In this document: one piece after another, positions 1,506 through 23,120 of the stretch
Layout of the letters: each line of letters begins with the position of its first letter
Position numbering within the stretch: the stretch's first letter is position 1
NCBI GenBank assembly: GCA_020630975.1
Contig: JAHDID010000014.1
Location: 1 to 34,182, forward strand
Direction of reading: 5' to 3'
Source of the DNA: Verrucomicrobiota bacterium
GTDB taxonomy: Bacteria; Verrucomicrobiota; Verrucomicrobiia; Verrucomicrobiales; DEV007
DNA: 34,182 nucleotides
Made by a program: the position numbers and the translations under genes
Notes under the pieces: model-generated
What the model saw: the letters and a program-made list of their open reading frames with translations, nothing else
Databases searched by the model: none
Told to the model about the DNA's origin: nothing

Positions 1506-2312
1506 TTGAAGACGCTACCGTTTTACCAAGTCGATGCCTTTACCTCTGAAGTCTTTCGGGGAAATCCTGCAGCTGTCGTCCCTCTAGACTCATGGCTGCC
1601 CGATCATCAGCTGCAATCCATCGCAGAGGAAAACAATCTCTCAGAGACGGCCTACATCTGTGCTGAGGGCAGCGGATACCGCTTACGCTGGTTCACACCG
1701 GTGTTCGAGGTCGATCTCTGCGGTCATGCCACCCTGGCTACGGCACATGTGCTATTTGAGCATCTCGGCTACGATCAGCCGGCCATCACCTTTCATTCGG
1801 CTCTGGGCGACCTGATTGTGGTGCGTACACCCACAGGCTATCAGATGGATTTTCCCATCGATCAGTTGCGCCCCTTCGAGATACCTCTGGGGCTAAGCGA
1901 CGCGCTATATGGCGCAAACATCACCCACCTCTACGCTGGCAGGCACGACTGGCTGGCGATCGTCGCCAGCCAAGACGAGGTCCAGCATCTCAAGCCCGAC
2001 ATGGACTGGATCGAGCGCCAGGATACCAGAGGTATCATCGTGTCTGCAGAGGCCGACGGCGAGCTCGAGGCGGACTTTGTCTCGCGATGCTTTTTCCCAA
2101 AGGCCGGCATTCCAGAGGATCCTGTGACGGGATCGGCCCACACCACTATGATGGCACACTGGGCTCCAGCCCTAGAGAAAAAACAACTAAAAGCCCGCCA
2201 ACTCTCGGCACGCAGTGGCGATCTTTCCTTAGAGCTAGCAGAAGATCGAGTTTTGATCAGCGGTAGTGCCGTGACCTATGCGAAAGGTGAAATTTATATA
2301 CCTAAAGCGTGA
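1506..2312 (+). CDS. PhzF family isomerase/epimerase-like protein
   Basis: A 268-residue protein of the PhzF/DapF-fold family, full length for the family. It opens with FYQVDAFTSEVFRGNPAAVV, carries the catalytic glutamate in NNLSETAY (E47), DLCGHATLATAHVL in the first half and DPVTGSAHTTM in the second, which form the two-domain active site. Family members act on small substrates such as trans-2,3-dihydro-3-hydroxyanthranilate, but most genomic copies have unknown substrates, and no phenazine genes are nearby. The start is TTG at 1506, just after GGAGA at 1499-1503, unusually close spacing. It lies 34 bases after the primase-HAD gene and may be co-transcribed with it. A dispersed repeat begins immediately after the stop. 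Confidence 0.88.
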   Translation: MKTLPFYQVDAFTSEVFRGNPAAVVPLDSWLPDHQLQSIAEENNLSETAYICAEGSGYRLRWFTPVFEVDLCGHATLATAHVLFEHLGYDQPAITFHSALGDLIVVRTPTGYQMDFPIDQLRPFEIPLGLSDALYGANITHLYAGRHDWLAIVASQDEVQHLKPDMDWIERQDTRGIIVSAEADGELEADFVSRCFFPKAGIPEDPVTGSAHTTMMAHWAPALEKKQLKARQLSARSGDLSLELAEDRVLISGSAVTYAKGEIYIPKA

Positions 2313-2313
2313 G

Positions 2314-2349
2314 ATTCAATAGGGTACAATTTTGACTCAACAGGGTACA
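2314..2349 (+). repeat. Tandem 13-bp motif, 21-bp period (copy 1)
   Basis: Two copies of a 13-base motif, TCAATAGGGTACA, lie at 2316-2328 and 2337-2349 (the second with one change, TCAACAGGGTACA). They start 21 bases apart, about two helical turns. The same arrangement recurs at 15588-15621 (opposite strand) and 26882-26915. This copy begins right after the phzF stop codon and lacks the companion 23-base element seen at the other two loci. Confidence 0.85.
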
Positions 2350-2452
2350 GTCGGTATAGGAGCGTGAAGCGCCCACAGTCTCGACAGAAACATGCCATTT
2401 ATCAGCGAGTGAAGGGTTTGCGATCGCCGCTTGGCCTAGGAACACTTCTGTC

Positions 2453-2531
2453 GACCCTCCGGGTCTTAGGATCCCTTGGTTGGTCTTCCGGTGGTTTTAC
2501 CACCGGCTATTATCTGTCGTGCCTCCGGCAC
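2453..2531. repeat. Array of three short-loop hairpins
   Basis: Three perfect hairpins follow one another: GACCC-TCC-GGGTC (2453-2465), CCGGTGG-TTTTA-CCACCGG (2488-2506) and GTGCC-TCC-GGCAC (2519-2531). The first and third share the loop TCC. The array lies in the 252-base gap between phzF and the convergent membrane-protein gene. It resembles REP-like hairpin arrays of some bacterial genomes, but no associated transposase is present. An open frame at 2364-2582 across this array is treated as spurious. Confidence 0.7.
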
Positions 2532-2564
2532 TATCACCAACGACAACATGAAGCAAAAAACACG

Positions 2565-2867
2565 TTATCCAGAAGGAGATAACGGCGTCTTTTTCTGAGA
2601 TTGAGCCCGAATGACACCCAGAACCCCGCATATCAAGATAACTATTAAGGGATACATGATCCGGCAAACTTTGTCTGCTTGATCAGACCCAAAATCATGG
2701 AGTTTTTCGATAGCCACAACGCCGGCAGGATCTGCACCCTTTGCTTCCTCAACTAGCATATGCCAGCTGTAGACAGCATGCATGGCACTATCCACAACGT
2801 AGTAGCCAATCCATACGCTAGCCCCAATGATCAGAAGCGAGGGAAGAAGACTCGACAGTTTAGACAT
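2565..2867 (-). CDS. Small two-helix membrane protein
   Basis: A 100-residue protein of unknown function. It has an N-terminal hydrophobic segment (SLLPSLLIIGASVWIGYYVV), a polar central loop of about 45 residues, and a second hydrophobic segment (IMYPLIVILICGVLGVI) followed by a basic tail. The ATG at 2867 is two bases after the gpgS stop (TAGTGATG), so translation is probably coupled to gpgS; a GTG one codon earlier is possible. A hairpin (GTTATC ... GATAAC, 2564-2583) overlaps the stop codon and could help end the transcript. Its position as last gene of the operon suggests a link to the GpgS pathway, but nothing in the sequence shows a role. Confidence 0.65.
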   Translation of the reverse strand: MSKLSSLLPSLLIIGASVWIGYYVVDSAMHAVYSWHMLVEEAKGADPAGVVAIEKLHDFGSDQADKVCRIMYPLIVILICGVLGVIRAQSQKKTPLSPSG

Positions 2868-2869
2868 CA

Positions 2870-3865
2870 CTATCTAGAGAATTTCTTTAGGTACTCATCG
2901 ATGGTATTCATCGGTGGTCTTTCTTCTTCGATGATCTCTTTTAGCACTTGCTCGTAGCGCTGGCCTTCGGCCTGGAATTGACGGAAGACATTCGACATGT
3001 CTGGCATGCGATCGACCATATCAAGGCTTTCGAGTCGATTGATGAAACTCTGCAGTATGCCGAATGCCATCTTGCCGAGATCGCGGGTCGATTGATTGCG
3101 ATGGACTCGGCTCTCGAGATCGGTCTGGGCAAAGGCCTCTAAACCGCGCTTTTGGTAGACATCGATCAGGTGCGAGGTCTCGACTCCGTAGCCGATCGGA
3201 AATGGGATCTCCTCGAGCACCTCGCGGCGCACAGCGTACTCGCCGGAGAGCGGCTGCACCATGGCGGTCAGCTCAGGGAAAAAGAGCGAAAAAAGTGGGC
3301 GCACCAAGATCTCGGTGACTCGCCCGCCACCTGATGGGCGGATACCCTCTGAGAAGGCCAGAGGGCGGTCGTAGAAAGCTTTCACATAATGAACCTCGGG
3401 GCGATAGATGAGCGGCGCGACGAGTCCAGTGACGAAGCGTGGGTGTATGTTTTTGATATCGGCATCGACGTAGCAGATGATATCGCCCGTCAGCTGATAA
3501 ATGGCTTTCCACAAATTCTCTCCCTTGCCAGGTTTGAAGCCCTGGCTGGGCAGGATATCGGCGGAGAGATAGGTATCGGCTCCATAGCTGCCAGCGATTT
3601 CGAGAGTCTTGTCCTTCGAGCCCGAGTCAATCACCGCGATCTCGTCTACTAGCGGATAGCGATCCATCAGTTCGCTTTTAAAGATGATGATCTCTTTGCC
3701 GATGGTTTTCTCTTCGTTCAGCGTCGGGATACAGAGCGATATCTTTAGGCCGGCTTTTTCTTTGGCCTCGATCAACTGCTGCAAGTCCCAAAACTCACCG
3801 TGATGGTAGGTATTGGTATCGAGCCATTTCTCGATGACTTGGGATGTGGCTTCGCTATCGATCAT
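2870..3865 (-). CDS. gpgS: Glucosyl-3-phosphoglycerate synthase
   Basis: A 331-residue glycosyltransferase of the GT81 type with a GT-A fold. It is expected to transfer glucose from an NDP-glucose donor to 3-phosphoglycerate, the first step to the compatible solute glucosylglycerate or to derived polysaccharides. Supporting motifs are CIPTLNEEKTIG (45-56), VIDSGSKD (78-85), PGKGENLWKA (112-121), the metal-binding DAD of YVDADIKN (134-136) and QPLSGEYAVRR, all typical of GpgS. The length is close to the family norm. The start ATG overlaps the stop of the upstream hydrolase (ATGA, 3862-3865), and a membrane-protein gene follows after two bases, giving a coupled three-gene operon. No GpgP-type phosphatase gene lies next to it. 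Confidence 0.88.
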   Translation of the reverse strand: MIDSEATSQVIEKWLDTNTYHHGEFWDLQQLIEAKEKAGLKISLCIPTLNEEKTIGKEIIIFKSELMDRYPLVDEIAVIDSGSKDKTLEIAGSYGADTYLSADILPSQGFKPGKGENLWKAIYQLTGDIICYVDADIKNIHPRFVTGLVAPLIYRPEVHYVKAFYDRPLAFSEGIRPSGGGRVTEILVRPLFSLFFPELTAMVQPLSGEYAVRREVLEEIPFPIGYGVETSHLIDVYQKRGLEAFAQTDLESRVHRNQSTRDLGKMAFGILQSFINRLESLDMVDRMPDMSNVFRQFQAEGQRYEQVLKEIIEEERPPMNTIDEYLKKFSR

Positions 3866-5260: not shown

Positions 5261-6496
5261 GTGCCAGCCTTCGCCTACACCGCCGTCGATGCATCGGGGA
5301 AAAAAGTCTCCGGGACTCTGGAGTGCCGCAATAAAGCGGAGGCTTATCGATCCCTGGAAGCTCAGTCGCTGACTCCAGTCACTGTAAAGGCCCAGGAGGA
5401 TGCGGCTGCCAAATCGAGCAAAAAAACCAAAAGCAAAGGCCCGCTAGAGCCTGTCGCGCTGCCACGCACGGCCATGATCACTCTCACTGAAGAGCTGGCC
5501 GATCTACTCGACGCTGGGCTGCAGCTGGAGCAGGCGCTAAAGGTGCTGCACGATCGGCAGCAGCACAAAGGCATCAAAACCGTAGCAGGCATTCTGCGAG
5601 AGGAAATCCGCGAGGGCACACGATTTTCCCAAGCGCTAAAAAAAGCCTCCCCATCCTTTGACGAGCTGTATCGAAATCTGGTAGCCGCAGGCGAGGCCAG
5701 CGGCGCACTGCCGGACATCCTCAGCCGCCTAGCGATAAATCTGAAGCAACTGCACAACCTACAGAAACGCACTGTCTCGGCGATGATCTACCCGACTGTA
5801 GTGATGATCTTTTGTGTGATCTTGCTCATCGTCTTCAGCACCGTGCTCATGCCCATGCTGACAAAGATGATGCAGAAGACTGGTCAAGACCTGCCGCTAG
5901 TCACCGAGCTGTTGATCGCCTTCACCAACTTCATCAATGCGTGGTGGTGGCTCATCCTATCGGTAGTGGCTGTCACAGGGCTACTCTTCAAAGCCTTTAT
6001 CGCTACCAAGCCCGGAAGACTCTGGTGGGATCGGGTAAAACTACGCCTGCCTGCCTTTGGCCCAGTCATCTCAGGGCGATTTTTCGCGCAGTTCTCCCAC
6101 TCCATGGCCAATCTGGTCAACAATGGCGTGCCGCTACTCAATGCGCTAAACCTGCTAAAGCGTGGCACCCCAAACCGCCACATACGCCACCAATTCGACG
6201 CTGTAGTCAGCGACGTCGGCGAGGGCAATAGCCTCTATCGTACGCTGGAGCGGCGCACCGACTTCCCACCCGCCCTGATCGACCGCATCGCTATCGGTGA
6301 GCAGTCTGGCGAGCTGGGCAAAGCCTTCACCAAAGCCGCTCACAAATATGATGATGAGCTGGACATCCACATTTCGCGACTGACGAGCGTACTGCCGATG
6401 GTAATGTTGATCTTCGTAGCTATCATCGTAGGTGTGGTGGCCTACGCCGTCATCAATACCGTCCTCGGCTCGATCACGGGTATCGGCGGGCGGTAG
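5261..6496 (+). CDS. gspF: Type II secretion inner-membrane platform protein GspF
   Basis: A 411-residue polytopic protein, normal length for GspF/PilC. It starts with PAFAYTAVDASGKKVSG, the usual N-terminal motif, and has two repeated T2SSF cytoplasmic helical domains (about 70-190 and 275-395). The first repeat has ELADLLDAGLQLEQALKVL and the second has FSHSMANLVNNGVPLLNAL. Membrane segments are near 170-195, 225-245 and 375-405. It anchors the secretion ATPase and pseudopilus assembly in the inner membrane. GTG start at 5261. It heads a run of gspG-H-I-J-K; the ATPase GspE, secretin GspD and GspL/M are not in this window and must lie elsewhere if the system works. Confidence 0.92.
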   Translation: MPAFAYTAVDASGKKVSGTLECRNKAEAYRSLEAQSLTPVTVKAQEDAAAKSSKKTKSKGPLEPVALPRTAMITLTEELADLLDAGLQLEQALKVLHDRQQHKGIKTVAGILREEIREGTRFSQALKKASPSFDELYRNLVAAGEASGALPDILSRLAINLKQLHNLQKRTVSAMIYPTVVMIFCVILLIVFSTVLMPMLTKMMQKTGQDLPLVTELLIAFTNFINAWWWLILSVVAVTGLLFKAFIATKPGRLWWDRVKLRLPAFGPVISGRFFAQFSHSMANLVNNGVPLLNALNLLKRGTPNRHIRHQFDAVVSDVGEGNSLYRTLERRTDFPPALIDRIAIGEQSGELGKAFTKAAHKYDDELDIHISRLTSVLPMVMLIFVAIIVGVVAYAVINTVLGSITGIGGR

Positions 6497-6527
6497 AGTT
6501 GGGTTACTCTCTTTTATCAATTAGGAA

Positions 6528-6956
6528 ATGAAAAATCACAGCAAGCGCAGCAACCGTCGCAAAGGCTTCACTCTGGTAGAGATCGTCATCGTGATCACCA
6601 TCATCGTGATCTTGGGCGGCTCCGCCATCTACATGCTGACCGGCATGATCGACGACGCCAAAGTGCAGCGAGTCGATGGCGATCTAAATGTGCTCGACCT
6701 AGCTCTCAAGAGCTACGAGCGGAACAATCATGGCAAACCACCTACCCAGGAGCAAGGCCTCGATGCCCTAGTCAACCGCCCCACCAGTGGCGCGGTGCCA
6801 AAGCGCTGGCGCAACTACCTAGAAGAGGAGGTGCTCGACCCCTGGGGAAATCCCTACCAGTACCGCATACCATCGACCAAAAGCAAAAAGCGCTACGATA
6901 TCTGGTCGCTAGGCGAGGATGGTGTAGAGAGCGAGGACGATATTGGCAACTGGTAG
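6528..6956 (+). CDS. gspG: Type II secretion major pseudopilin GspG
   Basis: A 142-residue prepilin. The basic leader (13 residues) ends in RKG, followed by FTLVEIVIVITIIVIL with the conserved glutamate at +5 of the mature protein. The C-terminal half has the GspG signature: a PTQEQGLDALV segment, WGNPYQYRIP, and an acidic calcium-loop ending SLGEDGVESEDDIGNW. It forms the main pseudopilus shaft after cleavage and methylation by prepilin peptidase, which is not seen here. An AGGA lies just before the ATG, one of few Shine-Dalgarno-like sites in the window. The gene ends 14 bases inside gspH. Confidence 0.94.
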   Translation: MKNHSKRSNRRKGFTLVEIVIVITIIVILGGSAIYMLTGMIDDAKVQRVDGDLNVLDLALKSYERNNHGKPPTQEQGLDALVNRPTSGAVPKRWRNYLEEEVLDPWGNPYQYRIPSTKSKKRYDIWSLGEDGVESEDDIGNW

Positions 6957-7611
6957 AGGACAGCTCCACAGCTGCTACGACAGCGACAGGCGATCCGGCG
7001 GTTTTACCCTCGTCGAGATCGTCATCGTGCTGTCGATCCTAGCCATCCTCACTGCCGTATCTATCCCCTCGGTCGACGGCATCCTAAAAGAGCGCCAGGC
7101 TCGCGAGCCGGTATCTGAGCTGCTCACCCTGGCCAGAGAGGTGCGCGGCCGCGCTATGCGCGAGCAGCGGCCCTACCAGATCGTCTTCGACTCCGATGGA
7201 TTCCAAGCCGCTCGTTACTTTAATCCCTACGGTGGTAGGGAGGAATTCGACAAGCTGCGAGACCTACTGCGCACACAGCAAGAGCAGCTAGACATCATCG
7301 AAGCATCGCGCCGACGCAACATGTCCACTGGCGAAGATACTCCACCCGGCCCCAGACTAGTCGGTGCCATGGCGGGCCTGACCTATGCGGCCAGCTACGA
7401 GATATCCGATCGCGTCGACTACCGGCTGCGCTCTTGGCGGGATACCGATTGGGTCGATATGGAGGGCGGTGCATTTAAAAGATGGGTGTTTCAGCCGAGC
7501 GGCATGTGCGACCCCATGCGTGTGCAGTTTCAGTCCGATCACGCTTTTTTCGAAGTGGAGTTCCACCCCCTGACCGCAGACATCAAAGACGAAACCTCAT
7601 GGGTAGAGTGA
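6943..7611 (+). CDS. gspH: Type II secretion minor pseudopilin GspH-like
   Basis: A 222-residue pseudopilin-like protein. The prepilin site is SGG/FTLVEIVIVLSILAILTAVSIPSV, cleavage expected after residue 20, with Glu at +5. The C-terminal domain begins with LLTLAREVRGRAMREQRPYQIVF, the usual GspH/FimT pattern, followed by a longer, variable region including Arg-rich and acidic stretches. The leader of 20 residues is longer than in the neighbouring pseudopilins. The gene overlaps both gspG (14 bases) and gspI (13 bases), consistent with tight translational coupling. The H assignment rests on order and on the GspH/FimT-like domain. Confidence 0.8.
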   Translation: MATGRGQLHSCYDSDRRSGGFTLVEIVIVLSILAILTAVSIPSVDGILKERQAREPVSELLTLAREVRGRAMREQRPYQIVFDSDGFQAARYFNPYGGREEFDKLRDLLRTQQEQLDIIEASRRRNMSTGEDTPPGPRLVGAMAGLTYAASYEISDRVDYRLRSWRDTDWVDMEGGAFKRWVFQPSGMCDPMRVQFQSDHAFFEVEFHPLTADIKDETSWVE

Positions 7612-8009
7612 CCGCCAGACATAGCGCTAATCAGCGAGGCTACGCGTTGCTCGACATCGCGCTAGCACTGACGATCTTTGCCTTCGCCGTCACCGGTATG
7701 ATCGTGCTCATGCAAAAGATCTCCGAGACCTCGGGCGCCTACGCCCGCGACCGGCTCATCCAGCAGGCGATGGACTCCTTTATCAAAGAGACCAAGCTCA
7801 AGCCGGTGCGCGACATGACTAGCGAATACTACGACGAGACGCTCGACATCACGCTAAAAGCCGAAGTGAACACCGTAGATCTCGCCAACGCCGATGGCGA
7901 TAGCCTAGAAGATCTTTATCTACTAAAAGTAACTGCGGAATTCGAGGATGCTGGCGGCACGCAGATCGAGGAGGCCGAACTCTACGTCTACCAACCCGAG
8001 AGAAAATGA
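7599..8009 (+). CDS. gspI: Type II secretion minor pseudopilin GspI-like
   Basis: A 136-residue pseudopilin-like protein. The ATG at 7599 lies inside the end of gspH; a longer open frame upstream is only a shadow of gspH. The prepilin motif is RG/YALLDIALALTIFAFAVTGMIV, with cleavage expected after G14. The residue at +5 is aspartate (D19) rather than the usual glutamate. The remaining sequence is short and matches GspI in length and gene position. Its stop overlaps the gspJ start by four bases. GspI normally forms the pseudopilus tip with GspJ and GspK. Confidence 0.78.
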   Translation: MGRVTARHSANQRGYALLDIALALTIFAFAVTGMIVLMQKISETSGAYARDRLIQQAMDSFIKETKLKPVRDMTSEYYDETLDITLKAEVNTVDLANADGDSLEDLYLLKVTAEFEDAGGTQIEEAELYVYQPERK

Positions 8010-9043
8010 AGCCTCGCTCCGCCAGACAGCACCACGCACGCAGCGGCTTCACTCTAGCCGAGATCGTCATCGCCATGACGATACTCGCTCTCATCTCGGG
8101 CTCAGTCATGGCCATGCTGCTGCAGGCTGGCGATACCGCTGCCGACATCCGCGATACCGATAAAAAAGACGAAGAGATCTCGCGCTTTATCGAGCTACTC
8201 GGCCACACGATCGAGGCACTACCCTCCGATGCGACCATGGAGATGACGATCGGTAGCGAGAGCGCATCTGGCTACCCCGAGCTAAAGATCTCCGATGCCG
8301 TCGGCGCATTCATCTTTGGCGAAGATGTCGGCTCCGCAGGAGAGCTAGTCATAGGCCTACAACCACAGGACGATAGCGATGGCAGCAGCGACTCCACCGA
8401 GCCGCTCTACCAGCTAGCCATCTCGCGCGATAGTTTTTCCCCAGAAGATACTGATGGCGATGGCATGGTCTTTGGTGCAGGTGCCGACGACTTCCTCACA
8501 CCCGATACCGAGGGCCGCTACTGGCTACCACTGGTCAGCGACATCATCTCTGCAGGCTGGCGCTACTGGGATGAAGAAAATCAAGAATGGCTCACCGAGT
8601 GGGAGGAGGAAAATCTCCCCCCTCTGATGGAACTGAGCATCGAAGATAGCCACCGCCCCGGAGCGGTCAGAGCCGTCTTCGAGCTGCCCGATCATGTCGT
8701 ATCTGGCGAGGGAGGCCGAGACGATACCGCAGAAAGCAGCCCCGCGCCTGAAGCCAGCACCGTATCACAGCCCTCTCAATCGACTCGCCCCAGCCTGACA
8801 TCGAGCGGCAGTCGACCACAGGCTCGACCTGAAGGAGGTAAAGGCAAAGGCGGCTTTGGCGGCAAAGGCAAAGGCTTCGGAGGCAAGGGTAAAGGCGGCT
8901 TTGGCAAAGGCAAAGGTGGTAAGGGCGGCGGCGATGGCAAAGGCGGAAAAGGAGGTGGCAAAGGTGGAGCCGGCGGCGGTAAGGGCGGCGCGCGAGGCGG
9001 GGCCGCTCCTAGCAACTCAGGCACCCCTCCAGCAGCACCATGA
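8006..9043 (+). CDS. gspJ: Type II secretion minor pseudopilin GspJ-like with Gly/Lys-rich tail
   Basis: A 345-residue pseudopilin-like protein. The prepilin site is SG/FTLAEIVIAMTILALISGSVMAML, with Glu at +5 and cleavage after G14. Residues about 35-235 are acidic and form the expected periplasmic domain, including WRYWDEENQEWLTEWEEENLPPLMELSIE. Residues 236-275 are Ser/Thr/Pro-rich, and about 277-335 consist almost wholly of glycine and lysine in short repeats (GGKGKG, GGFGGKGKG and the like), an unusual extension making the protein longer than typical GspJ. The tail is expected to be disordered and strongly cationic. The gene overlaps gspI and gspK by four bases each. Confidence 0.82.
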   Translation: MKPRSARQHHARSGFTLAEIVIAMTILALISGSVMAMLLQAGDTAADIRDTDKKDEEISRFIELLGHTIEALPSDATMEMTIGSESASGYPELKISDAVGAFIFGEDVGSAGELVIGLQPQDDSDGSSDSTEPLYQLAISRDSFSPEDTDGDGMVFGAGADDFLTPDTEGRYWLPLVSDIISAGWRYWDEENQEWLTEWEEENLPPLMELSIEDSHRPGAVRAVFELPDHVVSGEGGRDDTAESSPAPEASTVSQPSQSTRPSLTSSGSRPQARPEGGKGKGGFGGKGKGFGGKGKGGFGKGKGGKGGGDGKGGKGGGKGGAGGGKGGARGGAAPSNSGTPPAAP

Positions 9044-9969
9044 GATCTCCCCACTACAGATGGAAAAACCAGCGCGGCATGGCTCTCATGCTCGTCATCG
9101 GCGTGGTATCGCTACTGGTCGCGATCGTCATCGGCCTGCGAGTCGCCTCAGAGGCATCGTGGGATGAGAGCACCCTCAGCCGCATGCGTTTTCAGGCCAA
9201 GATGCTCGCTGAGTCCGGTGCCAATCTCGCGCTCCACCCAGACATCCAGCCCGGCGACCCCATCCTAGTACAAGATTTCGGCGATGGCCGCGGCTTCCGA
9301 GTACGCATCCGCACCGAGGGCGGCCGTATCCCTGTATCAGCCCTCAGCACGACGGCCATGATCGAGACGACTAGCGAGCTTTTCACCCGCTGGGGATTAG
9401 ACGCTACCCAGGCCGCTATCGCAGCCGAATCACTCGCCGACTGGGTAGATGGCGATAGCGAAGCCCGCTCGAATGGTGCCGAGCAGGCCTACTACGCGGG
9501 GCTCGATCACCCAGAGTACCCGACCAATGAGCCGCTCGTCTCTCTAGAGACCATGCTACTGGTCCGCGGCATGGATGCCGTGGCTCGTATCCAGCCACTC
9601 TGGCGTGACTACTTCACCCTATATGGCAGTGGCACCATCGATCTCAACTCCGCTCCAGCCGATCTGATCGAAGCCGTGCTCGATGTCGACCCCGACAATG
9701 CCATGAACTTCATCTCTGCCCGTGCTGGTGGCGATGGCCTGCTCGACACCGACGACGACGAGCCCATCACCGATACCAACGAAGCCCAGCAACTCCTCGG
9801 TTTGACCAGTGATGCCTGGAATGAAAAAAGCAGCATCATCACGCTGATCGGCGACATCCGCCGCATCGAGAGCACTGGAATCGTCGGCGATCACCAGGTG
9901 ACAGTAGTCCTACTCACCGAAGTGAATGACGATGAACTGACGCCCCCAGTAGCCCGATACACCGAGTAA
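9040..9969 (+). CDS. gspK: Type II secretion minor pseudopilin GspK-like
   Basis: A 309-residue protein, last of the gsp run. The N-terminus has RG/MALMLVIGVVSLLVAIVIGLRVA, the GspK-type prepilin site lacking Glu at +5, as is usual for this family. GspK traits are the length, the helical insert domain with SLADWVDGDSEARSNGAEQAYYAG, and DLNSAPADLIEAVL typical of the helix-hairpin-helix-like part. Calcium-type Asp-rich stretches such as LLDTDDDEP occur near 240. It would cap the pseudopilus. It overlaps gspJ by four bases and ends 13 bases before the DUF1428 gene. Confidence 0.88.
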   Translation: MRSPHYRWKNQRGMALMLVIGVVSLLVAIVIGLRVASEASWDESTLSRMRFQAKMLAESGANLALHPDIQPGDPILVQDFGDGRGFRVRIRTEGGRIPVSALSTTAMIETTSELFTRWGLDATQAAIAAESLADWVDGDSEARSNGAEQAYYAGLDHPEYPTNEPLVSLETMLLVRGMDAVARIQPLWRDYFTLYGSGTIDLNSAPADLIEAVLDVDPDNAMNFISARAGGDGLLDTDDDEPITDTNEAQQLLGLTSDAWNEKSSIITLIGDIRRIESTGIVGDHQVTVVLLTEVNDDELTPPVARYTE

Positions 9970-10357: not shown

Positions 10358-12178
10358 TTGAAAATTTTCTCCACAGAACCCAAAAATCACTCCGGCACAA
10401 AACAAAAACAACAGTGTGCCACTCGAATTTTCACCCTTCTGTTTTGCCTTAACGCTTTTGGCTTTGCCACTCTTTTCGGACAAACACAATCCTTTACAGA
10501 TTTTGGGCGCGCCTCAGGCGGGACAGATTTCGAGTATTCTATTTCGCCAGTTTCATTCTCTCCGATCGGCGATTCGACCGGTCTGTTCGTTACATCTACT
10601 GATGCAACCTTTCCACAAATCGGGATGGGCGGGAATGCGGTCAGTGCAGCTTTCACTTCCTCACCCGTAACAACATCCGGAAGATACGCTGTAAGCCTCG
10701 AAGGAAACTTTACACTCGCTTTCCTAGGAACTGCTTCATCAGCAAGCTCTATCAACCTCCCAACTACAGCAGAAGAAGTTCGTAATCTTAATTCTCTATC
10801 CTCACCTGTTATCATCGAGCTAACCGCAGGAGAATACCTTCTATTAGGCTACGATATATTAAATGCACCTGGCGATCTCGACGCGGCAGATCTCTGGACA
10901 GGTTCTAGCCTTACATTGGTGTATCAACCGGTCGCACAAACTATCACCCAAGTCGATCTAGCGGCGCAGCAGCAGCTAACCAGCCACGCTCTACCCATGA
11001 ATTTGCTACTCGGGCAGGTGGCGGGCAATTTGCACAGCTTGAGCGGACGTAGCCTCAACAAACGCCTACACCGACTTCGCTCGCGCTCCATTCAAAGCAG
11101 AGAGTCCCAAGCCTCATTTTTCGCAGGTCGTCAGGCACGAATCGAAAGTAGCACTTCAATTAGCTTGAATAGCTATTCAGGCGAAACCACCGTCCCTCAA
11201 AATTCTTCTTTGGCAGCCCAAGTGGAATGGCCAAACCTTCTTCCCACCACCACTCTTACGGCCAATGAAATCGTGGCTCCCGATGTCGTGGCTCAGGGAA
11301 ACTCTTGGCAAGCTTTTGCCTCGGCTGACTTTGGCCACTATGATCTCGATCAGCTCAACAGTCATCCAGAGTTGGAGAGCAACACCTATGCCTCCACCTT
11401 GGGGATAGAGCTCTCCATCGATCAGGCATGGACCGCAGGCCTGGGCTGGTCACATGTGTGGAATGATAACACCATGGGTAACCAATTGGGCAGTGTGGAC
11501 ATCGAAGGTGATGCCATCATGGCTTACGCCTCATACTTTAAAGATAACTTCTGGGGAGACCTCTTATACAGCTACGGAGCCTACGGGGCAGATATCGACA
11601 GAAACACGACCCTAGGCACATCCGTCCACGCCGATCCCGACATCGACTCACATCAGACCAGCTTAAACTTAGGCTACAACATTCCTACCGCCAGACGCCT
11701 GACTCATGGCCCCACCTTCCGCACCGATTACAGCTGGGGGCATATCGATGGATACACAGAAACAGGTGACATCCGCGCCAACACCACATTTCAGGAGCAA
11801 CAATACGAGTCTCTCATCACAGCCCTAGGATGGCAGGTCAATTGGGAAACTGAGCTTAGCTTTGCTACAGCAAGACCAAATATCCGCCTAGGATACGGCC
11901 GCGAAAACCTCGCCCAGAGTTCAAACACCAACGGCACTCTTCAGCAGAGCCCAGTCACCTTTGTGAATAGTGCTACTGGTGCTATCACAGGCAGAGGAGC
12001 AGCGGTTAGCAATCAGATCAGCCATAATCATTCACCAGAAGGCTGGATGGAATTGGGCGCTGGGATTAACTTTGAGATCAATCAAAAGCTAAATCTATAT
12101 CTAGATTACCAAGGCAGACTCTTCCAACAAGACAGCCAGCTGCACATGGGCTCAATCAAGGCTGGCTGGAGTTGGTAA
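10358..12178 (+). CDS. Autotransporter outer-membrane beta-barrel protein
   Basis: A 606-residue protein with a long N-terminal export signal (hydrophobic stretch IFTLLFCLNAFGFATLFG, probable cleavage near residue 41). The passenger region (about 45-310) is Ser/Thr-rich and shows no recognised enzymatic motif; an Arg-rich stretch, RLHRLRSRSIQSRESQ, lies near 235-250. Residues about 310-606 look like an autotransporter beta-barrel: alternating amphipathic strands, Gly/aromatic-rich repeats such as GLGWSHVWNDN and ELGAGINFEINQKLNLYLDY, and a terminal aromatic (GWSW). TTG is the likely start, with GGGAGAAAGAGG upstream. The passenger may stay attached as an adhesin or be released; its role is unknown. 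The start of the gene is less GC-rich than the neighbouring genes. Confidence 0.82.
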   Translation: MKIFSTEPKNHSGTKQKQQCATRIFTLLFCLNAFGFATLFGQTQSFTDFGRASGGTDFEYSISPVSFSPIGDSTGLFVTSTDATFPQIGMGGNAVSAAFTSSPVTTSGRYAVSLEGNFTLAFLGTASSASSINLPTTAEEVRNLNSLSSPVIIELTAGEYLLLGYDILNAPGDLDAADLWTGSSLTLVYQPVAQTITQVDLAAQQQLTSHALPMNLLLGQVAGNLHSLSGRSLNKRLHRLRSRSIQSRESQASFFAGRQARIESSTSISLNSYSGETTVPQNSSLAAQVEWPNLLPTTTLTANEIVAPDVVAQGNSWQAFASADFGHYDLDQLNSHPELESNTYASTLGIELSIDQAWTAGLGWSHVWNDNTMGNQLGSVDIEGDAIMAYASYFKDNFWGDLLYSYGAYGADIDRNTTLGTSVHADPDIDSHQTSLNLGYNIPTARRLTHGPTFRTDYSWGHIDGYTETGDIRANTTFQEQQYESLITALGWQVNWETELSFATARPNIRLGYGRENLAQSSNTNGTLQQSPVTFVNSATGAITGRGAAVSNQISHNHSPEGWMELGAGINFEINQKLNLYLDYQGRLFQQDSQLHMGSIKAGWSW

Positions 12179-14067: not shown

Positions 14068-15012
14068 ATGATAGGGAAAGCATGCTTCGTGGCAGCAGCA
14101 CTAGCTATAGCCACACTACCCGCCAGAGCAAAGAATCCACCAGAGATCGGCCAGGTAAAATGGGGCAGAGATATCGATGCCGCCATGAAGACCTCCGCCA
14201 CCTCTGGCAAGCCGGTCTTCTTACTCTTTCAAGAAGTGCCCGGATGAGCGGGCTGCCAGCAGTTCGGTCGAACTGTTTTGAGTCATCCGCAGATGGTCGA
14301 GGCGATCGAGGACCTGTTCGAGCCAGTCGTCATCTACAACAATCAACCCGGCAAAGACGCCCAAGATCTGAAACGCTTCCGTGAACCGGCATGGAACTAC
14401 CAGGTCATCCGCTTCATCGATGCCGAAGGCCGAGACATCATCCCCCGCCGAGACAAAGTCTGGACTACCGAAGGCCTAGCCGCTCGGATGATAAAGGCCC
14501 TCGAATCTCAGCGAAGAGCTGTCCCCCTCTATCTAAAGGCTCTAGCCGGTACATCCGCAGCTACTGAGCCAGGCCGAGCGGCTTTTGCTATGTTTTGCTT
14601 TTGGACAGGCGAGCACCGGCTCGGCAGCCTCGATGGAGTCATCGCCACCGAGGCTGGCTGGCTCGATGGTCACGAAGTGACTCTGGTAGACTACGACCGA
14701 GCGGCTATCTCCTTTGCCGATCTGGTGAAAGCGGCTGCCAGCTACGACTGCGCCCGAAAGATCTTCACCCAGAGCGACTCCGATCTAGCCATCGCCAAAG
14801 CCTCTCGCCTGGCCACCGGCTCGCTCGACGCCAGCTACCGACCCGCAGCAGCCAAAGACCAAAAACGCCAAATCCTAGGCTCCGCCTGGCAGCGCCTAGG
14901 ACTCAGCCCCACACAGGCTACCAAGGTAAATGCCCACGCCCGCACCGATCCAGAAAAAGCAGCCGCTTGGCTCAGCCCACGGCAACTCGCCCAACTGTAC
15001 AAACAGAAGTAG
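14068..15012 (+). CDS. Exported thioredoxin-like selenoprotein with MsrA-like domain (in-frame UGA)
   Basis: Read from ATG 14068 through the TGA at 14245-14247 as selenocysteine, this encodes 314 residues. Residues 1-21 form a signal peptide (FVAAALAIATLPARA). Then follow DAAMKTSATSGKPVFLLFQ, typical of thioredoxin-fold proteins, and VPG-U-A-G-C, with Sec60 and Cys63 in a UxxC redox motif. The frame continues with LSHPQMVEAIEDLFEPVVIYNN, so both sides of the TGA belong to one domain. From about residue 160 an MsrA-like region appears: FCFWTGE with C177, SLDGVIATEAGWLDGHEV and DRAAISFADLV. The VPGU block resembles the VPGUxxT thioredoxin-like (seleno)protein family. Routine gene calling would start at TTG 14278 and lose the signal peptide and active site. 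Probable role: extracytoplasmic thiol or methionine-sulfoxide redox repair (inference). No selA/B/C/D genes lie in this window. Confidence 0.82.
14258..14277 (+). promoter_or_regulatory. SECIS-like hairpin after the in-frame UGA
   Basis: Directly downstream of the UGA (14245-14247) a perfect six-pair stem, CAGTTC (14260-14265) with GAACTG (14270-14275), closes a GGTC loop (14266-14269). It extends by a G-T and an A-T pair to 14258-14277. Eighteen bases separate the UGA from the loop, and both first loop bases are G. These fit the known traits of bacterial SECIS elements: a hairpin within the coding region soon after the UGA with G in the apical loop. Recognition by SelB is inferred. Confidence 0.72.
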
Positions 15013-21806: not shown

Positions 21807-23120
21807 TCAAGTATCGATGACAGCAAACTTCAGCTCGGCCTCGGCCGTGACCTCGCCATTCACCAGACAGCGGCAGTTCGCTGAAGCGATGCTGCGACGA
21901 ATCTTGGTGAGCTCGGTCTCGATGAAGAGCGTGTCTCCCGGCACCACAGGCTTGCGGAATTTTACCTTATCAGCACTCATGAAGTAGCCGACCTTGCCCT
22001 GGTGCTGCGGCATACGCAGCAGGATGATGCTGCCGACCTGAGCCATCGCCTCGATCTGCAGGACACCCGGCATCACTGGATGGCCTGGGAAATGCCCCTG
22101 AAAGTAAGGCTCATTGATGGTGACTTGCTTCACCCCTGTGCAGCCCATATCGCCTTCAAATCCGACGATACGGTCTACCATGAGGAAAGGATAGCGGTGC
22201 GGCAGGATCTTCTGCACCTCGACAGTATCGAGCACGCTCTCACCGTGTGGAATGTGCACTGGTGGCACCATGGATCGCGTGTTCTGCAGCTGCTTATCGA
22301 TCAGCTCAGCCATCTTAGTATTCGGACCATGACCAGGCTTAACAGCGATGATGTGGCCATTGATGCGCTTACCGCAGAGCATCAGATCGCCGATGATATC
22401 GAGGATCTTGTGGCGGACAAACTCATCGTCATAGCGCATCTCCTCCTTACTCATCACAGAGTCGCCTTTCACCACCACGGCGTTTTCCAGGCTACCACCT
22501 TTGATCAGACCTTTCTCGAGAAGCGGCTCGACATCCTCGTAGAAGACGAATGTCCGCGCTGGAGCGATCTCTTTCTCATAGGTCTCTGGAGTGATATCCA
22601 TCGACAGATGCTGAGTGAATCTACCGTCTGGCCCCACCTGCGTGCAGGACACCTTCAGCCCCTTGCCTGGGACGATGGTGATCAGCGAGCCATTGCCAGC
22701 ATCCATGTGTAGAGGCTCGCGCACCTCGAAGACCGAGCGATACTCCTCTTGCTCCTCGATACCGGCCTGCTTGATACACTCGACGAATGGCAGCGACGAG
22801 CCATCACCGATCGGCGGCTCATTGGCATCCATCTCGATCAGAGCGTTGTCGACACCCATGCCGACGAGAGCAGAGATCACGTGCTCCACAGTGTGGACCT
22901 TTACCGAGCCCTCTGCCAGTGTGGTGGCGCGCTCTACGGTCTGCACCTTCGACACGTGCGCATCGATAAAGGGCTGATCATCGAGATCTACCCTGCGAAA
23001 GCGGATACCGTGCCCTGCCGGAGCGGGCTTCATAGTGAGAGTCACCTGCTCGCCGGTATGCAGGGAGGTACCCGTGAGCGAGGATGAAGAGGCGAGTGTT
23101 TTCTGTCTAGCCGTCGACAT
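21807..23120 (-). CDS. lpxC-fabZ: Bifunctional LpxC deacetylase / FabZ dehydratase
   Basis: A 437-residue fusion. Residues about 1-285 are the zinc deacetylase LpxC (committed step of lipid A synthesis): VHTVEHVISALVGMGVDNA with the zinc-binding H80, the EPPIGDGSSLPFV block, and RHKILDIIGDLMLCG with zinc ligands His and Asp. Residues about 300-437 are the beta-hydroxyacyl-ACP dehydratase FabZ: ILPHRYPFLMVDRI, GHFPGHPVMPGVLQIEAMAQ with catalytic His and Glu. This fusion is known from Bacteroidota and related diderms, and supports a Verrucomicrobia/FCB-PVC-type origin. It lies upstream of lpxA. The leader contains AT-rich sequence (TAAATATTTTATCC) near the ATG and no Shine-Dalgarno site. Confidence 0.94.
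   Translation of the reverse strand: MSTARQKTLASSSSLTGTSLHTGEQVTLTMKPAPAGHGIRFRRVDLDDQPFIDAHVSKVQTVERATTLAEGSVKVHTVEHVISALVGMGVDNALIEMDANEPPIGDGSSLPFVECIKQAGIEEQEEYRSVFEVREPLHMDAGNGSLITIVPGKGLKVSCTQVGPDGRFTQHLSMDITPETYEKEIAPARTFVFYEDVEPLLEKGLIKGGSLENAVVVKGDSVMSKEEMRYDDEFVRHKILDIIGDLMLCGKRINGHIIAVKPGHGPNTKMAELIDKQLQNTRSMVPPVHIPHGESVLDTVEVQKILPHRYPFLMVDRIVGFEGDMGCTGVKQVTINEPYFQGHFPGHPVMPGVLQIEAMAQVGSIILLRMPQHQGKVGYFMSADKVKFRKPVVPGDTLFIETELTKIRRSIASANCRCLVNGEVTAEAELKFAVIDT

Follow-up and report, generated by a model that had tools for sequence, protein, structure and literature searches.

A UGA-interrupted gene of a Verrucomicrobiota bacterium predicted to encode an exported selenoprotein with a thioredoxin-like and an MsrA-like domain

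On the forward strand of a 34,182-nucleotide stretch of DNA from a Verrucomicrobiota bacterium (contig JAHDID010000014.1; the whole stretch analysed is called the window hereafter), a reading frame starting at ATG 14068 runs into an in-frame TGA codon and stays open behind it. The locus raises the question whether this UGA ends a broken gene or is read as selenocysteine (Sec), to which family the complete product belongs, and which reaction it might perform.

Reading frame and gene product

The original prediction had described a frame giving, from ATG 14068, a signal peptide, a stretch ending in VPG, a UGA codon and a continuation. This frame was confirmed with all its elements, the signal peptide being judged by eye. 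ATG 14068 is followed by VPG, TGA, Ala-Gly-Cys63 and an open frame up to TAG 15010-15012, and the TGA at 14245-14247 is the sole in-frame stop between ATG and TAG. Translation through the UGA of frame 14068-15012 (+ strand) gives 314 residues with Sec at position 60. The N-terminus has the appearance of a probable signal peptide, and an in-frame start upstream of residue 60 is present in 86/86 of the sequence rows compared. The features concerned are the following:

14068..15012, + strand: predicted selenoprotein gene of 314 residues with Sec60, stop codon TAG included (translation; NF041383 at 365.2 bits, residues 26-310)
14068..14130, + strand: probable signal peptide, residues 1-21 (translation judged by eye)
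14245..14247, + strand: UGA codon predicted to be read as selenocysteine 60 (of the 86 rows, 83 of them distinct, 74 have Cys and 12 UGA)
14254..14256, + strand: codon of Cys63, the Sec60 partner in UxxC (Cys in 86/86 rows)

The readthrough frame is no chance extension, since a single curated family model spans both sides of the TGA (residues 26-310) and since relatives have one uninterrupted frame with Cys at the place of the TGA (in 4 of the 6 genomes that exceed the cut-off of that model, and in 70 of 80 named loci). A mechanical list of open reading frames contains only a 244-aa piece starting at TTG 14278. Reading through the UGA restores a gene which such calling would cut, with loss of both the export signal and the active site. 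The expectation that automatic callers would report the downstream piece alone held for this list, but a pipeline using NF041383 could recognise the gene and need not miss it.

Membership in a catalogued family

The family model is NF041383 (NCBIfam; VPGUxxT family thioredoxin-like (seleno)protein, type 2), which matched residues 26-310 with 365.2 bits against a cut-off of 275 and was covered completely (profile positions 1-287 of 287). That a VPGU-type family exists had been stated in the original prediction. The VPGU motif appears as VPG-UGA in the window protein, and VPG or IPG followed by Cys or Sec was found in 86/86 rows. The position given as T in the label VPGUxxT is occupied by Cys in all 86 of them and is therefore not what defines type 2. 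The type 1 model NF041382 did not reach its cut-off (136.3 vs 350 bits) and matched the thioredoxin half only.

Full-length match over the cut-off, VPGU motif and exchange of Sec and Cys at the same place are all shared by the window protein and NF041383, and no feature was found that separates the two. The gene is a fresh member of a catalogued family and not the founder of a new one. The announcement of a new selenoprotein hence stands for the member and not for the family, which was already recorded as NF041383 and, in two reviews, as OS_HP5. In the parts of these reviews that were accessible, NF041383 is listed in 2026 as hypothetical protein OS_HP5 with the motif VPGU (PMC13188914), and OS_HP5 is listed in 2022 with neither domain nor motif (PMC9312934). 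Within the same parts, the treatment of OS_HP5 makes no mention of the MsrA-like half presented below (PMC13188914, PMC9312934). No description of that half was found in the literature on the family name and on MsrA or thioredoxin-domain selenoproteins, a body of work in which subscription papers were mostly beyond reach. The hypothetical protein of the reviews gains here a domain make-up and a testable reaction.

Selenocysteine machinery and Sec/Cys exchange at residue 60

The genome of the window (7.14 Mb in 158 contigs, 95.77% complete, 0.51% contaminated) was searched for selA, selB, selC and selD, whose absence the original prediction had regarded as fatal to it. All four are present: selA scored 522.4 bits (cut-off 267.9), selB 272.6 bits, or 296.5 with in-frame neighbours (cut-off 242.25), selD 301.1 bits (cut-off 125) and tRNA-Sec, with anticodon tca, 58.6 bits (cut-off 47).

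Among 288 genomes of the phylum, six including that of the window contain the family over the cut-off; the codon is TGA in two of these (the window's genome and G240) and encodes Cys in the other four. A scan of genome contigs yielded 418 relatives, the best 80 of which were kept as named loci; 70 of them have Cys at residue 60 and 10 have UGA, a proportion that is no census of UGA use, as one of the two search patterns demands Cys. The nearest named relatives of the window protein, within these best 80 of 418, belong to the Verrucomicrobiales. One of the loci with UGA, L115, comes from Roseibacillus persicicus, which is in culture. In all 86 rows residue 60 is either Cys or UGA and residue 63 is Cys, which speaks for the predicted Sec60 and its pairing with Cys63; decoding of the UGA as Sec is further supported by the SECIS-like hairpin described below. 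Three of the rows are duplicates, leaving 83 distinct members (11 UGA, 72 Cys). On a quick maximum-likelihood tree of these 83, a minimum of 6 changes is needed to explain the UGA label, and well-supported branches enforce 3 of these; for shuffled labels the average is 10.6. This indicates that Sec and Cys were exchanged more than once at residue 60, while the label still clusters.

TGA acts as a normal stop elsewhere in the window, where it ends 9 of the 20 frames checked. A reading of TGA as Trp throughout was rejected, given these 9/20 frames, the TGG codons contained in 18/20, and the presence of Cys rather than Trp at the site in relatives.

A SECIS-like hairpin behind the UGA codon

Folding and comparison of members revealed the following element downstream of the UGA codon:

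14258..14277, + strand: SECIS-like hairpin, stem 14258-14265 paired with 14270-14277, loop GGUC at 14266-14269

The loop begins 18 nt after the UGA and is carried by an 8-bp stem. E. coli fdhF, used as control, shows the identical loop GGUC at the identical offset of 18, where the uninterrupted stem measures 4 bp. A loop GGTC or AGGT with a stem of at least 5 bp follows the codon in 11/11 distinct UGA members and in 1/72 distinct Cys members, by a rule set post hoc after the UGA members had been examined, and one which fdhF with its 4 bp would itself fail. With a broader rule (at least 5 bp of stem and a loop that contains GG or GT and lies at offset 15-27) the counts are 11/11 and 23/72 (p 1.8e-5). 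Within the window, a GGTC/AGGT hairpin occurs after 3 of the 1075 TGA trinucleotides of both strands, UGA 14245 included. When compared with the window stem, that of L053 differs in three pairs, two of them altered on both sides and the third on a single side, and that of L103 differs in one pair, altered on both sides; the 8 pairs are kept in each case. The mean folding energy of the 42 nt past the codon separates the groups weakly (-13.1 kcal/mol for UGA vs -10.7 kcal/mol for Cys members). For the window's 46 nt a folding z of -1.97 was obtained, with 5 of 200 shuffles equal or better.

Judged from gene content and alignment, UGA 14245 is almost certainly decoded as selenocysteine by SelA, SelB, SelD and tRNA-Sec together with the downstream hairpin. 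That the gene is instead broken, its UGA being a plain stop, an error of sequencing or the decayed codon of a Cys, would fit the TGC or TGT found at the site in most relatives, but is very unlikely in view of the ten other named loci with UGA at the same codon, the hairpin with the fdhF loop at fdhF spacing (a type so rare behind TGA in the window), the complete Sec machinery and the otherwise intact frame.

The family contains two types of hairpin, with GGTC at offset 18 (window, L053, L103) and AGGT at 25. The latter was seen in the UGA members L095, L098, L105, L110, L119 and L123. It also follows a TGT codon in L091 (match 2219-3115), the single one of the 72 Cys members with an AGGT hairpin (9-bp stem, offset 25), which is perhaps the remains of the SECIS of a lost Sec codon.

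Thioredoxin-like first half

The window sequence and 58 of the 80 loci were aligned (alignment A2, 59 members); the 22 omitted are near-copies, sequences cut by contig ends or sequences of odd length, the UGA member L103 among them. An AlphaFold model built from the 59 sequences reached a mean pLDDT of 94.9 and a pTM of 0.89. The two halves of the protein were assigned as follows:

14152..14520, + strand: thioredoxin-like domain of DsbD-gamma/DsbH type, about residues 29-151 (PF13899; fold matches)
14563..15009, + strand: MsrA-like domain with helical tail, residues 166-314 (PF01625; C. oremlandii MsrA at Z 16.5; hhalign 98%)

PF13899 scored 32.6 bits on the window protein (gathering score 27). 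In VIA-align, the first half of the predicted model matched 3f9u (Z 14.4), DsbH (2ju5, Z 13.7) and DsbD-gamma (2fwf, Z 12.7). Searches against the sequences of solved structures likewise returned DsbD-type thioredoxins for the first half, although more weakly than MsrA chains for the second. The fold of residues 29-151 is thus shared with the C-terminal (gamma) domain of DsbD, with DsbH and with Thioredoxin_7 (Z 12.7 to 14.4), from which the window protein differs by a UxxC motif with Sec in place of CxxC and by the fused MsrA-like half.

MsrA-like second half

PF01625, the MsrA model of Pfam, scored 23.6 bits on the window protein, 0.1 below the gathering score of 23.7, and 22.6 bits at the window gene in the genome search (25.9 with in-frame neighbours); at E values up to 0.01 it was found in 57 of the 59 members of A2. 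MsrA chains were matched by this half in the sequence searches of solved structures, and comparison of the family's C-terminal profile with the Sec-containing MsrA of the same genome gave an hhalign probability of 98%. With the predicted model as query, the top five Foldseek hits were all entries of Clostridium oremlandii MsrA (CoMsrA; best E 3.8e-6). Residues 166-314 aligned with 7c13, 4lwl and 4u66 at a VIA-align Z of 16.5 (144 to 146 residues aligned, rmsd 2.1 to 2.8), and MsrAs of other organisms reached at most Z 13.9 among Foldseek's top 1000 chains, the only ones rescored. Among known MsrA structures, CoMsrA is singled out by its helical tail, on which its activity depends (PMC4333827). 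In the model, residues 166-314 adopt the MsrA fold together with the helical tail known from the Clostridium selenoprotein, and the second domain appears to derive from MsrA, with a build closest to the one-Cys selenoprotein MsrA of C. oremlandii. The original prediction had not noticed this MsrA-like character.

Selenoprotein MsrA is a known family. An msrA homologue in the window's own genome (L019, also L134; G000:C12:30613-31068, minus strand) has TGA at the Cys of the CFW motif, followed at offset 20 by a GTT loop on a 7-bp stem, and possesses a long C-terminal part; when read through it gave 129.7 bits with PF01625. It is probably a second selenoprotein gene of this genome.

PilB of Neisseria, a thioredoxin-like - MsrA - MsrB fusion, is likewise exported and has its thioredoxin-like domain in front of the MsrA domain; the likeness is one of make-up. 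PilB is not known to contain Sec and carries the extra MsrB domain. Its MsrA domain was among the fold matches (3bqh, VIA-align Z 13.7).

Active-site residues kept and lost

The active site of CoMsrA consists of the GCFWG motif, Tyr47, Glu55, Gln89, Tyr90, His137 and Tyr140 (PMC4333827). Two of its residues have conserved counterparts at these codons:

14596..14598, + strand: Cys177, at the place of the MsrA catalytic Cys/Sec (59/59 members of A2; 86/86 rows in pairwise alignment; aligned with CoMsrA position 16)
14674..14676, + strand: Glu203, aligned with CoMsrA Glu55 (58/59 members, Asp in one)

Next to Cys177, Phe178 is found in 55/59 members (Tyr in the other 4) and Trp179 in 58/59. The window protein thus aligns with CoMsrA (PDB 4lwj, 4u66) in the catalytic Cys/Sec, Phe-Trp and Glu, in addition to the shared fold and helical tail (Z 16.5 on the predicted model). 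In contrast to CoMsrA, it carries Cys at the catalytic position, its Sec being located in the fused thioredoxin domain, and the sequence around Cys177 is FCFWTG instead of GCFWG. The 13-residue stretch bearing Tyr47 is absent from the window protein in both the alignment and the predicted fold. His137 and Tyr140 are probably replaced as well, the YHQKY motif that holds them falling on D264-Q265-K266 in one of two hhalign alignments, from which the other differs; the two runs also disagree in the stretch that would place Tyr257 on CoMsrA Tyr90. With Cys, Phe-Trp and Glu kept but FCFWTG in place of GCFWG and the Tyr47 stretch gone, the domain is called MsrA-like and was not filed as MsrA. The missing Tyr47 stretch and the probable replacement of His137 and Tyr140 make ordinary MsrA activity doubtful.

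Positions 60 (Cys or Sec), 63 and 177 are invariant in 59/59 members. Exactly three Cys are present in 12/59 members, and these must be the residues at 60, 63 and 177, given that the three are invariant. Cys228 is shared by 45/59 members, including the window protein, a distribution that rules it out as a universal resolving Cys; in the window protein itself it is a possible one. One relative (L126, 244 residues) retains Cys60, Cys63 and Cys177 and is devoid of the part around residues 203-257. Either the complete domain is thereby suggested not to be strictly required, or this copy has been damaged or misassembled.

Gene neighbourhoods

The window gene lies between a divergent NmrA-like gene upstream and a convergent RecO-like gene downstream. 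Clustering joined none of 12 window neighbours to the genes around the 80 loci, no functional hint was obtained nearby, and there was no Msr gene among the window neighbours examined. Within 5 kb of the 80 loci, an Msr gene was identified in five. A full msrA starts 8 nt past the stop codon in L053 and 3 nt past it in L126; msrB starts 111 nt past the stop codon in L068; in L069 both msrB (248 nt) and msrA are located upstream, on the opposite strand; and L106 has msrB 1.8 kb upstream. An MsrB-like motif at L101 was not confirmed by Pfam. In the other 75 loci no Msr gene was detected nearby by a motif scan, which can miss some. In the 0.76 Mb of loci, 3 msrA genes were seen against about 0.2 expected, a rough yardstick taken from the window's own genome (2 full msrA genes in 7.1 Mb). 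These neighbours connect the family with the repair of methionine sulfoxide, but do not discriminate between a cis and a trans mode of action.

Proposed reaction and competing functions

A catalytic Cys and an acid without a conserved resolving Cys are what one-Cys MsrAs have. In CoMsrA, Sec is the only such residue, no other Cys is present, and reduction is achieved by glutaredoxin and not by thioredoxin (PMC4333827). The fused Sec60/Cys63 domain would be a natural resolving partner for such a site. The reading that we lean towards, by a modest balance, is that of an exported two-domain selenoprotein in which the thioredoxin fold with Sec60-x-x-Cys63 recycles the MsrA-derived one-Cys domain. 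As to the mechanism, it is about an even matter whether the protein works as an exported reductase whose Sec60/Cys63 pair recycles the one-Cys MsrA-like domain within one chain. In that cycle, Cys177 would be oxidised to a sulfenic acid as it reduces an extracytoplasmic substrate, an oxidised sulfur compound that is probably a methionine sulfoxide or a sulfoxide related to it. Sec60 would resolve this sulfenic acid, a role assigned to it because the family has no conserved resolving Cys in the MsrA-like half. A donor in the membrane, of the DsbD/CcdA kind, would then reduce the resulting Sec60-Cys63 bond. Such a cycle parallels the Clostridium system in which glutaredoxin serves a one-Cys selenoprotein MsrA, here perhaps inside one exported chain. 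More tentatively, the whole NF041383 family could function as a self-contained exported sulfoxide reductase whose pocket has been reshaped to take some substrate different from the ordinary methionine sulfoxide of peptides.

The main competitor to recycling in cis is action in trans, whereby Sec60/Cys63 reduces a separate exported MsrA or MsrB and the MsrA-like half is a non-catalytic dock or scaffold. The msr genes adjoining or lying near L053, L126, L068, L069 and L106 would agree with such a role, as would the loss of substrate-pocket residues. It is nevertheless rather unlikely, since Cys177 in 59/59, Trp179 in 58/59 and Glu203 in 58/59 members are more than a mere dock would need, and the 75/80 loci without a nearby Msr gene in the motif scan (which can miss some) count against it as well. 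A DsbD-gamma/DsbH-like exported oxidoreductase for thiols and disulfides in general, with an MsrA-like half that binds oxidised clients or another ligand and takes no part in methionine repair, is suggested by the closeness of the thioredoxin half to DsbD-gamma, DsbH and AGR-type folds and by the remodelled MsrA pocket, but is improbable when set against the invariant Cys177 with its Phe-Trp and Glu and the Msr neighbours in 5/80 loci. Recycling of the MsrA-like domain by the fused Sec60/Cys63 domain is retained here as the preferred reading.

Other features of the window

Four further features were recorded during the analysis of the window:

290-1471, + strand: 393-residue protein matching PF22548 (38.8 bits), the archaeo-eukaryotic primase domain of TOTE conflict systems
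2488-2532, + strand: Acido-Lenti-1 RNA, an Rfam sRNA family (43.3 bits, gathering score 37)
5261-9969 and 10358-12178, + strand: type II secretion genes (T2SSF, N-methylation motif protein, T2SSK), then an autotransporter beta-domain protein
21807-23120, - strand: LpxC-FabA-like fusion protein (PF03331, 317.2 bits; PF07977, 115.3 bits)
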